A DNA stretch of 64,000 nucleotides from SAR116 cluster bacterium AG-426-B08. Its GTDB lineage: Bacteria > Pseudomonadota > Alphaproteobacteria > Puniceispirillales > Marisalimonadaceae. The notes beneath the pieces were generated by a model, which worked only from the letters and a program-made list of their open reading frames with translations, was not told the origin of the DNA and ran no database searches. The position numbers were made by a program, and so were the translations under genes. The stretch covers positions 20,336-84,335 of the forward strand of contig QCNN01000003.1 of assembly GCA_003213175.1 (NCBI GenBank), written 5' to 3'. Positions 37,494 to 42,724 of the stretch are shown here, piece after piece; the first letter of the stretch is position 1; each line of letters opens with the position of its first letter.

Positions 37494-37736
37494 TTATGCA
37501 GCTTTATTTTTTTCTAATTCAATCATCTTATCGTTAACCGAATTTTTTGAAATAGGCAAATTTATAACTTCATTTGATTTATAAAAATTACCATTTGAAA
37601 GCTCATGTCTTGTTATTCCTAACTGAAATAATTCGTTATCTGACAAAAAAGATAAAGCTTGTCTTGTTCTAATAATAGCAACTTTTTCAAAGATATTGAT
37701 TATAGCAGTTGAGAGTTTTTTTAAATTAAAAATCAT
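37494..37736 (-). CDS. DUF1127 small protein (CcaF1-like)
   Basis: An 80-residue basic protein with the DUF1127 motif RTRQALSFLSDNELFQLGITRHELS near residues 25-49. Its C-terminal part (VINLPISKNSVNDKMIELEKNKAA) is an extra tail. DUF1127 proteins are short, arginine-rich and often linked to stress or phosphate responses in alphaproteobacteria; the Rhodobacter homologue upstream of CcsR RNAs has been described as RNA-binding. Here too an anti-SD-loop RNA follows in the same transcript. Divergent from the MarR gene 202 bases away. Confidence 0.85.
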   Translation of the reverse strand: MIFNLKKLSTAIINIFEKVAIIRTRQALSFLSDNELFQLGITRHELSNGNFYKSNEVINLPISKNSVNDKMIELEKNKAA

Positions 37737-37781: not shown

Positions 37782-37840
37782 TTAACAATTTGTTAATATA
37801 CAAATTAGGAAAATAATTGTTTCCAAAATAGAAACAATTA
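37782..37840. promoter_or_regulatory. two dyads between the DUF1127 and marR genes
   Basis: TTAACAA-T-TTGTTAA (37782-37796) is a perfect 15-base palindrome, and TAATTGTTTC (37814-37823) with GAAACAATTA (37831-37840) is a perfect 10-base inverted repeat with a 7-base spacer. Both contain an AACAAtt core and lie 18 bases apart in the 202-base divergent region. They may be operators for the adjacent MarR-type protein or another regulator. Function is inferred from symmetry only. Confidence 0.45.
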
Positions 37841-37903: not shown

Positions 37904-37931
37904 TTGACAATAATAAATAAGCGTATATACA
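37904..37931 (+). promoter_or_regulatory. consensus-like promoter of the marR operon, predicted leaderless
   Basis: TTGACA (37904-37909) is a perfect -35, then a 16-base spacer and TATACA (37926-37931) as -10. Seven bases later comes the A of the marR ATG at 37939, exactly where transcription would be expected to start. No Shine-Dalgarno site exists before this ATG, so the first gene is probably translated from a leaderless mRNA. Confidence 0.7.
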
Positions 37932-37938
37932 CATATAT

Positions 37939-38349
37939 ATGTTTGATTATGAATATTGTAATTGTTATATTATTAGAAAAATATCTTCAAAAATTACTAA
38001 AATTTATGATAATGCTCTCAAAACGAGTGGTCTGAAAATAACCCAATATGCAATTCTTAAATATATAAGTATTTTAAAAAAAACTAACCTCAAAAACCTC
38101 TCTACCGCTATGGATTACAATAGGAGTACTTTGGGAAGAAATATAAGGATACTTGAAAGAAAAAAACTCATTCGCTTTGAAAAAGGTAAAGATAAAAGAG
38201 AAGTTGAAATTACTATGAGTAATGATGGAATCAAGATATTCAAGGTAGCCAGACAATCTTGGGAAAATATCAATAATCAAGTTTCTGAAAATTTTGGAAA
38301 AAATAAAATAAAAATTTTAGAACAAATTTTGAATGATAATATTTTATAA
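37939..38349 (+). CDS. MarR-family transcriptional regulator
   Basis: A 136-residue winged-helix protein. LKITQYAILKYISILKKTNLKNLSTAMDYNRSTLGRNIRILERKKLI is the helix-turn-helix, and EKGKDKREVEITMSNDG the wing. Terminal helices for dimerisation flank it. Two cysteines in the N-terminal YEYCNCYIIRK could make it redox-responsive, as in some OhrR-like proteins; that is speculative. It heads a four-gene operon with the ExbB/ExbD-like genes, the next gene starting 15 bases downstream. Its probable promoter is TTGACA/TATACA with a leaderless start. Confidence 0.85.
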   Translation: MFDYEYCNCYIIRKISSKITKIYDNALKTSGLKITQYAILKYISILKKTNLKNLSTAMDYNRSTLGRNIRILERKKLIRFEKGKDKREVEITMSNDGIKIFKVARQSWENINNQVSENFGKNKIKILEQILNDNIL

Positions 38350-38364
38350 AAATTTGGAGTTTAT

Positions 38365-38826
38365 ATGAAGATTTCTAGGTCTTTTTTACTATGGTGGGTA
38401 CAAACAGTTGCGATTTGTTTTGCATCTTTTTTTATTTACACGTTTGAATGGTTTGACGCTCTTTATAATTCTGATCAAACAAAAATTAGTTTTTTGATAA
38501 TTACCATTTTTATAATTGCATCAGTTACAGTTGGTTATTTAAGTTATAGAAATTCAAAAAATTTTAATAAGCTTAGTAATTATGTTTGGTTTTCTTCTGA
38601 AACAATGGTTACGCTTGGCTTAATAGGGACAGTAGCTGGTTTTTTATTAATGTTGAGTTCTGCTTTTGATAATTTAGATGTAAAAAATGTTGAAAATGTT
38701 CAAGAAGTGATTACTGATATGTCTCTCGGAATGAGCACTGCACTATGTACTACTCTTGTAGGTCTTGTTTGTAGCGTTTTAACAAAAATTCAAATGGTAA
38801 TCTTGGAAAATAACCAAGATGTCTGA
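38365..38826 (+). CDS. ExbB/TolQ/MotA-like proton-channel protein
   Basis: A 153-residue inner-membrane protein with about four hydrophobic stretches. The last two match the channel helices of the ExbB/TolQ/MotA family: MVTLGLIGTVAGFLLMLSS and STALCTTLVGLVCSVLTKIQM, including the conserved Thr residues that line the ion path. It is shorter than ExbB or TolQ (about 220-240 residues), lacking much of the cytoplasmic domain between helices. GGAG lies 7 bases before the ATG. Its end overlaps the ExbD-like gene by 8 bases. It probably forms the stator or pore of an ion-driven complex whose target is unknown. Confidence 0.75.
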   Translation: MKISRSFLLWWVQTVAICFASFFIYTFEWFDALYNSDQTKISFLIITIFIIASVTVGYLSYRNSKNFNKLSNYVWFSSETMVTLGLIGTVAGFLLMLSSAFDNLDVKNVENVQEVITDMSLGMSTALCTTLVGLVCSVLTKIQMVILENNQDV

Positions 38827-39436
38827 CCCAAGGTATAGATCCTCATTCGGTTTTATAGACCTTTTATTTAATTTATTGGTAGGTTTTGTTTTTCTATTCA
38901 TGCTAGCATTTATGTTGATTAATCCGGTTGCAAAAAAGGAAACAATAAAACCAAAAGCAGAGTACTTTATCATTTTAGAGTGGGATGGCGAAAAGCCATA
39001 TGACCTAGACATATGGGTTAAAGATAATTTAGGACATGTTGTTAGTTTTAGAAGACCGGATGATGCTCTTATTCATCTAGAAAGAGATGATTTAGGTACA
39101 ATTAATGATACTTATTATGATGCCGATGGAAACCTTGTATACTTGAAGGAAAATAGAGAAACTGTCGCAATCAGAACAAATGAGCCAAGAAATTATTTAG
39201 TAACAATACATTTTTATAATGCAAGAAAAAATCCTGCCCCTTTAGTTCATGCCACTGTAAAATTGATTAAAATAAATCCATATAGAGAAGAATATCATAA
39301 AAAGCTTTTTTTTAGTCAAGAAGGTCAAGAATTACCTGCAATGGTTTTTAGAATAGATTATAATGGCAATGTCGATGTAGGTCCTACGGAGGAATTAATA
39401 ATAAGAGATGAAGTTGTAAGAAAAGAGGGTGCTTAA
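38819..39436 (+). CDS. ExbD/TolR-like protein with unfamiliar periplasmic domain
   Basis: A 205-residue protein with a single N-terminal membrane helix, FGFIDLLFNLLVGFVFLFML, aligned with the ExbD/TolR helix motif FID-x4-LL; D14 is the expected proton-carrying Asp. After a short linker comes a ~150-residue periplasmic domain, starting EYFIILEWDGEKPYDLDIWV, that looks like a beta sandwich distantly recalling DUF2135/YfaP-type domains. I see no OmpA-like peptidoglycan-binding domain and no TolR-type fold. It overlaps its neighbours on both sides (8 and 1 bases). Role: partner of the ExbB-like protein; the cargo is unknown. Confidence 0.7.
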   Translation: MSDPRYRSSFGFIDLLFNLLVGFVFLFMLAFMLINPVAKKETIKPKAEYFIILEWDGEKPYDLDIWVKDNLGHVVSFRRPDDALIHLERDDLGTINDTYYDADGNLVYLKENRETVAIRTNEPRNYLVTIHFYNARKNPAPLVHATVKLIKINPYREEYHKKLFFSQEGQELPAMVFRIDYNGNVDVGPTEELIIRDEVVRKEGA

Positions 39437-39912
39437 TGATTGACTTTTCAATAAGTAGTGGACAACTCATGTTAATTTGGTCTTTTGCTGGTGCAGTATG
39501 TTGTTTACCTTTTTTTACTAAGAACAGGTGGCAACATTTTGTAATTGTTCCGATTATTTTTTTAGCAATTTTTCTAAGTTTTGAAACAAATCATAATTTT
39601 ATTGGAAAGCCATTATATGACAGACCTCCTAAAAGATTCGTTTATCAATTTCATAGTGTGGTTTATGAAAAAGGTGAGAGATGGATAATTCTTTGGGCGA
39701 TAAAAAATAAGGAAAATAGATTATATAAATTTCCACATACAGAGGAAAATGAGGAAAGTTTAGATCAGGCTAGAAGAAATCAAGAGCAATTTGGTATACC
39801 TCAAATGGGTGAAATAGTTCCTGAAGAAAATAATAATGACAAACGCTCTAGAAACAATGAATTTACTCTAAAAACTTATAAGTTTCCATATCAACAATTA
39901 ATGCCCAAGTAG
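39436..39912 (+). CDS. orphan membrane protein of the ExbB/ExbD-like operon
   Basis: A 158-residue protein that I do not recognise. Two hydrophobic segments, LMLIWSFAGAVCCLPFF (residues 11-27) and FVIVPIIFLAIFLSFE, precede a hydrophilic part with FVYQFHSVVYEKGERWIILWAIKNKENRLYKFP and an Asn/Glu-rich stretch. Its ATG shares a base with the preceding stop (TAATG), so it is translationally coupled and probably part of the same complex. It ends 2 bases before the convergent LLM oxidoreductase gene. It has no TonB or TolA features. Confidence 0.7.
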   Translation: MIDFSISSGQLMLIWSFAGAVCCLPFFTKNRWQHFVIVPIIFLAIFLSFETNHNFIGKPLYDRPPKRFVYQFHSVVYEKGERWIILWAIKNKENRLYKFPHTEENEESLDQARRNQEQFGIPQMGEIVPEENNNDKRSRNNEFTLKTYKFPYQQLMPK

Positions 39913-42082: not shown

Positions 42083-42724
42083 TTAACTCAGAAGAAAATT
42101 AGAAATTATTTCCTTACCCCCTTCACTTGCAAATGACTCAGGATGATATTGTATACCAAAAAGTGGATATTCAACATGTTTTACTCCCATTATTTCATGC
42201 GTTTTATTAAAACTTTGGAAAGTTATAGTTGGTGTTTCATTTTCAGTACAAAATGCAGTGATTTCAAAACAATTTGGAAGACTATTTTGTTCTACAATTA
42301 AAGAATGATATCTCATAATCTCAATAGATTGTGGAATATTTTTGTGAATATTTTGATTATCATGAAAAAGAAATGAAGTTTTTCCATGCATAGGAATTTT
42401 GGCTTTAACGATTTTCCCTCCAAATGAACTAACAATACCCTGCATTCCAAGGCAAATGCCTAAAATTGGTGTTTTTACTCCTAGTTGTAAAATAGTTTCT
42501 TTGCAAACGCCAAAATATTCAGAATTTTCTGGAGAACCAGGCCCAGGCGAAATTATTATCTTATTAGGTTTAATTTTTTTAATATCTTTAATATCGACTT
42601 CATCATTTCTTTTTACCAAAATTTGATGTTTATATTTTGAATAATATTTACTTAAAATCTCACCACAATATTGGTAAAGATTAAAAGTAAATGAGTCATA
42701 ATTGTCTAAAATTAATATCTTCAC
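42083..42724 (-). CDS. trpG: anthranilate synthase glutamine amidotransferase subunit
   Basis: A 213-residue class I glutamine amidotransferase that supplies ammonia to the TrpE-type subunit. ILDNYDSFTFNLYQY, SPGPGSPEN, the nucleophile GICLGMQGI and the GIQYHPESF His-Glu pair are all present. Its start overlaps the trpE stop by 4 bases (ATGA). Such subunits can be shared with aminodeoxychorismate synthase (PabA), so it may serve folate synthesis too. Confidence 0.88.
   Translation of the reverse strand: MKILILDNYDSFTFNLYQYCGEILSKYYSKYKHQILVKRNDEVDIKDIKKIKPNKIIISPGPGSPENSEYFGVCKETILQLGVKTPILGICLGMQGIVSSFGGKIVKAKIPMHGKTSFLFHDNQNIHKNIPQSIEIMRYHSLIVEQNSLPNCFEITAFCTENETPTITFQSFNKTHEIMGVKHVEYPLFGIQYHPESFASEGGKEIISNFLLS

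Follow-up and report, generated by a model that had tools for sequence, protein, structure and literature searches.

Gene content of the locus

The window analysed here is a stretch of 64,000 nucleotides from a SAR116 cluster bacterium whose genome is 51.7% complete. Four closely spaced genes are found in it, and we refer to the last three of them as B, D and C:

37939..38349, + strand: MarR-family regulator, 136 aa (PF01047, 3.6e-6, above the Pfam cut-off)
38365..38826, + strand: B, motor subunit of the MotA/TolQ/ExbB family, 153 aa (Pfam PF01618, 2.7e-7, above the cut-off)
38819..39436, + strand: D, transpore-helix protein, 205 aa (AlphaFold, Foldseek, conservation in 91 relatives)
39436..39912, + strand: C, two-TM protein, 158 aa (AlphaFold, charge topology, co-location with B and D)

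A first-pass annotation of this DNA described the four reading frames and their tight spacing (a gap of 15 bases, then overlaps of 8 and 1 bases) exactly. The stretch that it reported begins at 37904, but the first gene starts only at 37939. Conservation and a low dN against dS rule out chance ORFs, and an identical gene (100% identity) is also found in SAR116 cluster bacterium AG-426-I14. Neither D nor C gave a Pfam match at E <= 1, an NCBIfam match of weight or a PHROG match.

Three genes form the conserved unit

Whether the three genes stay together had been set beforehand as one of two points on which the idea of a new system should stand or fall. Among loci retrieved with D, B was present in 127 of 127 and C in 123 of 127, the four loci without C being cut by contig ends. 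An independent search seeded with B returned D and C in 80/80 loci, so the linkage cannot be an artefact of seeding. No SAR116 locus of sufficient length lacks any of the three genes. B, D and C are thus a real, tightly conserved and so far unnamed unit, and the earlier suspicion of an undescribed system was borne out in this respect.

The gene neighbourhood contains no TonB, TolA, TolB, Pal or receptor gene, either in the adjacent part of the window or in related SAR116 loci, as the first reading had noted for the nearby genes. No neighbour gene revealed the output of the trio. At eight chromosomal loci, a putative lipoprotein family (a Cys near the N-terminus, followed by YFPL-x2-G) is encoded 3' of the trio; loci with this gene downstream of C include L166, L168, L170 and L171. 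We list this family as a candidate output partner.

In phages, genes for Clp protease, ClpS, Hsp20 and trypsin-like proteins are recurrent, lineage-specific neighbours. The gene for a trypsin-like serine protease (PF13365) adjoins the trio in eight phage loci (L043-L046, L124 and other rhizobial phages). We could also observe HNH or Seg-like homing-endonuclease genes that split the trio in rhizobial phages (L043:8800-9342, L044:8219-8977). Genes for an SbmA/BacA-like inner-membrane peptide transporter (PF05992, 1.4e-139) occur in at least 208 viral contigs (for example L082:7191-8162 and L243-L322). They are adjacent to the trio in several phage contigs, but only 8 of 80 SbmA-seeded copies lie beside it; the link is therefore weak and we rejected SbmA/BacA as a partner.

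The upstream region

The locus had been described as a four-gene operon under local MarR control. Of 22 SAR116 loci whose sequence reaches far enough upstream, however, 6 have a MarR gene before B and 16 do not. We therefore place MarR outside the conserved unit, which consists of three genes, not four. The regulator also has a separate history, since it is 84% identical between the window and a near-identical relative (L002), as compared with 100% for B and D. This 16% difference, in genomes that are otherwise 96-100% identical, suggests local recombination or replacement.

At 37815-37839, in the stretch that separates MarR from the gene at 37494, there is a perfect 9-base inverted repeat (AATTGTTTC-N7-GAAACAATT). 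Because other SAR116 loci have a similar, conserved element ahead of B, the repeat may be an operator. Many SAR116 single-cell contigs stop about 40-140 bases upstream of B (L016, L018-L021, L023, L025-L027, L029, L030, L033 and L036). The region upstream of B is AT-rich (27% GC in L017), and no strong inverted repeat was found in it.

Protein B carries a motor core with a MotA-like layout

B scores 30.8 bits against PF01618 (cut-off 22.9), a model that 47 of its 50 relatives match as well, and its profile and core align with the solved MotA and ZorA structures. From hydropathy and charge, the protein is predicted to have four TM helices with both termini in the cytoplasm. The N-terminus and the loop that joins segments 2 and 3 are positively charged, the other loops being acidic, and the spacing between TM2 and TM3 is only about 20 residues. 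The core helices contain the motifs GLIGTVxGF (with Thr89) and GMSTALxTTLxGL (with Thr129/Thr130). Gly85 and Gly88 are invariant, and the threonines are highly conserved (Thr89 in 82/91, Thr129 in 81/91 and Thr130 in 82/91 sequences). For ExbBD, an essential Asp and pore threonines have been described (PMC12905483). Judging by motif position, we infer that Thr89 and Thr129/Thr130 match the pore threonines Thr148 and Thr181 of ExbB; the counterpart of the essential Asp would be Asp14 of D.

The first reading of this protein as ExbB/TolQ/MotA-like thus holds for the motor core and for the length of 153 residues, but the layout is the four-helix one of MotA, not the three-helix one of ExbB. The shortness is not common to all relatives. 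B is longer in cells, where the loop that links helices 2 and 3 spans about 60-95 residues in the proteins measured; phage and SAR116 proteins have about 20 residues there. Phage B lacks almost the entire cytoplasmic part of MotA.

Protein D combines a transpore helix with an unfamiliar periplasmic head

AlphaFold predicts for D (pLDDT 85.5) a helix at residues 5-34, a short linker and an all-beta domain at 49-201. The helix has the FID-x4-LL pattern with Asp14 that was seen in the first pass, and Asp14 is retained in 89/91 relatives. Conservation in the head is even more strict, as W55, D62, D64, L87, D90, D91, G93 and E114 are present in 91/91. The periplasmic domain had been called unfamiliar, and a match to TolR/ExbD was sought. 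None was obtained: the window D and 50 relatives do not match PF02472, and in 20/20 trio-positive genomes the Pfam ExbD model picks out other genes than D. The OmpA-like peptidoglycan-binding model had no match among the 50 D relatives either.

The best PDB fold for D is 2qng (Foldseek E 7.9e-4, TM-score 0.44/0.52). This entry is a TerD-family protein, since a search with a TerD sequence retrieves it (4e-8). The TerD profile (PF02342) matched none of the 50 D relatives, and in a profile-profile comparison (hhalign) P was 0.03-0.04 over 19-31 columns, which is not significant. We therefore do not assign D to TerD by sequence and call its head TerD-like in fold only, as a lead. Both sequences contain clustered conserved acidic residues, whereas D differs from TerD in being a membrane-tethered protein with a periplasmic domain. 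According to a work cited in PMC8123226, TerD binds Ca2+. On the basis of the invariant acidic residues, we hypothesise that the head of D binds a divalent metal.

Other candidates for the domain were not accepted. DUF2135 (3/50 relatives) and PPC (5/50) reached E values of 0.02-0.04 at best, and the PADLOC model PDC-M11A gave E 4e-4 in 2/50 relatives. A BFVD search with D returned matches to uncharacterised proteins.

Protein C

The fourth protein had been described as an orphan with two spans. In agreement with this, C has two helices and no family match; the helices are accompanied by a C-terminal alpha/beta domain of about 100 residues (AlphaFold pLDDT 82.9). The loop between the helices is positively charged. 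The charges therefore indicate an N-out topology with the C-terminal domain in the periplasm. We found no significant structural relative of C below E 0.001. OB-fold-like domains were the top fold matches, but with E values near 0.1 they were not used.

Distribution in phages and cells

The trio is mainly a phage-borne module. In IMG/VR, one B motif retrieved relatives from at least 416 viral contigs and one D motif retrieved 98 relatives; the hosts of such metagenomic viral contigs are uncertain. D is also encoded in 27 isolate phage records, all from Rhizobium or Sinorhizobium phages that range from 59-kb temperate phages to 171-kb phages. Among the matches listed, none of these records assigns a function to the D gene. 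The known isolates with the trio are Rhizobium phage 16-3 and Pootjesviridae-type phages. In the phages examined, the genes are consecutive, have about 115-150, 180-200 and 140-155 codons and keep their order. A limited search of the open-access literature and of family libraries returned no description of the trio or of a phage-encoded ExbB-type motor.

Phage hallmark genes beside the trio on these contigs encode DNA polymerase, clamp loader, tail sheath and PhoH. The position of the trio varies from replication genes to tail genes and to the vicinity of lysis genes, and for this reason we regard it as an accessory module. In phage 16-3, it is located at 22.6-24.5 kb. This is behind the end of the late region (16,823 bp on the map of the related AP-16-3) and ahead of the boundary between excisionase and repressor genes, in a part of the genome between late and early regions that has been described as genetically silent (PMC10460002). 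From this position we infer that the phage can grow in the laboratory without the trio.

The trio is also present in cells. A profile of D matched 42 of 289 alphaproteobacterial genomes (about 14%) and 35/234 of those of high quality, some of the cellular matches being weak. Among Pseudomonadota as a whole, 15 of 299 genomes were matched, including strong matches in three genomes of one non-alphaproteobacterial family. These genome collections are samples. In most of the cellular loci that were retrieved, D has B and C beside it. A plasmid search gave no match. The SAR116 trio and its neighbours are also found on one contig (L013) assigned to a Cryomorphaceae (Bacteroidota) genome, which is probably a binning error.

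The SAR116 copies nest among phage sequences

A tree was built from 91 concatenated sets of B, D and C. The copies of the SAR116 family form a clade (support 100/100) inside a clade that otherwise consists of phage rows, far from the main cellular clade. Forcing SAR116 together with the main cellular clade was rejected with a likelihood difference of 208 units and a p-AU of 1.5e-55, a value that is optimistic because the tested group was named after seeing the tree. The trio of near phage relatives adjoins a phage DNA polymerase or PhoH gene. On these sequence comparisons, the SAR116 family appears to have acquired the trio from a phage.

Of 136 genomes of the order, 45 carry D, and all of them belong to the window's own family. 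The listed family genomes with a completeness of at least 88% all carry D, no listed member that lacks it exceeds 84%, and no D was found in the sister families listed. SAR116 genomes share the genes on either side, placing the trio at a fixed chromosomal site, and this argues for vertical inheritance after the acquisition. A prophage in the window was rejected, since the trio is flanked by ordinary genes of the chromosome that SAR116 genomes have in common.

The SAR116 trio is under strong purifying selection. Between the window and L003, dN is 0.06 for D and 0.17 for the trpE-like neighbour at 42721, and D evolves slowest among the neighbourhood genes compared. Chromosomal retention and phage carriage could reflect different functions in the two settings.

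A putative ion-driven machine

The signatures in the unit (the PF01618 core, Asp14 and the pore threonines), taken from sequence and single-chain structure predictions, fit the earlier idea of a machine driven by ion-motive force. Flagella are powered by motors of this class, and so are gliding, secretion, phage defence and outer-membrane uptake and stability (PMC12204202). Several of them resemble the trio in part. The likeness to MotAB and PomAB lies in the four helices of B with both ends cytoplasmic, in the MotA core helices and in the single helix of D with its conserved Asp. However, B is much shorter than the 266-residue solved MotA chain and is devoid of the large cytoplasmic torque domain, and D does not have the OmpA-like peptidoglycan-binding domain of MotB. 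With ExbBD and TolQR the trio shares the PF01618 core, the pore threonines and the transpore Asp, but B has an extra N-terminal helix and the head of D is not PF02472. A precedent is provided by TolQ-like motors with vWA domains, in which a transpore Asp helix fused to another periplasmic domain replaces TolR/ExbD (PMC12204202). Here, too, a ring gene is combined with an Asp-helix partner that bears a non-TolR/ExbD domain; the trio differs by its TerD/PPC-like beta sandwich, the constant presence of C and its carriage by phages. Because of this precedent for a ring with another transpore-helix partner, the trio is best regarded as a variant within this motor class.

On the model of the solved members of the class, B would form a ring that lets ions flow past Asp14 in the D helix, and the ion flow would turn or shift the periplasmic head of D. 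C, anchored beside B and D, would carry or regulate the periplasmic output. The machine would be common to alphaproteobacteria and their phages, and the SAR116 family would have obtained its copy from a lineage of T4-like phages and retained it, as a conserved gene set, at a single place in the chromosome. Its most likely job would be the maintenance or remodelling of the cell envelope, while a phage might use it to keep the host intact or closed during infection. We give an even chance to this full reading, in which B, D and C are a machine of the MotA/ExbB/TolQ/ZorA class that derives from a T4-like phage lineage and serves envelope maintenance or remodelling. The broader proposition is that complete ion-driven motors, each with a ring, a transpore Asp helix, a metal-binding periplasmic head and a third subunit, are widely encoded by tailed phages, and that a major marine bacterial lineage domesticated one; it seems to us evenly balanced as well. 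If it is true, viruses also carry such motors, here in a compact form whose periplasmic head is undescribed. The trio would then be a rotary machine of viral origin that has a new output in the envelope, and it would offer a new route by which a periplasmic head makes use of the proton-motive force. With phage 16-3 and the Pootjesviridae-type phages among the isolates, the trio is testable in laboratory phages now.

Alternative functions

Envelope maintenance and superinfection exclusion are the leading candidates for the output, and exclusion is the main rival. In this case, the trio of a phage or prophage would block a second phage at the envelope, and the SAR116 copy would have been captured for protection. 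Such a role is possible, though clearly less probable than envelope maintenance. It would suit an accessory module that occupies varied positions in temperate and lytic-looking phages, including the silent region of 16-3 (PMC10460002), and whose three products are all membrane or periplasmic proteins; moreover, phages and bacteriocins are known to exploit Tol and Ton, which are motors of this class (PMC12905483). However, an exclusion gene neighbourhood was not seen, and retention at one site with a slowly evolving D is unlike the patchy, fast-evolving pattern of exclusion and defence genes. Because D evolves slowly and is retained family-wide in SAR116, we favour a steady role in the envelope over a fast-evolving defence.

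It is also conceivable, but unlikely, that the trio is a gated ion leak rather than a motor. B and D would then lower the membrane potential, and phages would use this for lysis timing or host shutdown. The loss of nearly all of the MotA cytoplasmic part from phage B agrees with this idea, as does the position of the trio in two rhizobial siphophages, where genes for lysozyme or endopeptidase lie only some kilobases away. Most phage copies, however, lie among replication or tail genes and not among lysis genes. A plain leak would need neither the conserved head of D nor the constant C, and the stable chromosomal retention speaks against toxicity.

Slightly more doubtful still is a minimal, Zorya-related bacterial defence against phages that was afterwards picked up by phages. 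ZorA models match the core of B better than the motor models of other libraries do (43-45 of 50 relatives, in the TM region only), and the MotA-like topology fits ZorA. But B ends right after the motor core, without the ZorA tail, and D shows no full match to ZorB, whose model touches only 2/50 D relatives with an E value of 0.0015 or weaker. No other defence gene adjoins the trio in the window. Family-wide conservation instead of a patchy distribution and the wide carriage by phages also argue against such an origin; carriage by the phages themselves sets the trio apart from ZorAB.

An ordinary but divergent Tol-Pal or TonB motor is highly improbable even though B belongs to the same Pfam family, as D has no ExbD match, TolA, TonB, TolB and Pal are absent nearby, and the trio coexists in 20/20 trio-positive genomes with separate ExbD-family and further MotA_ExbB genes.
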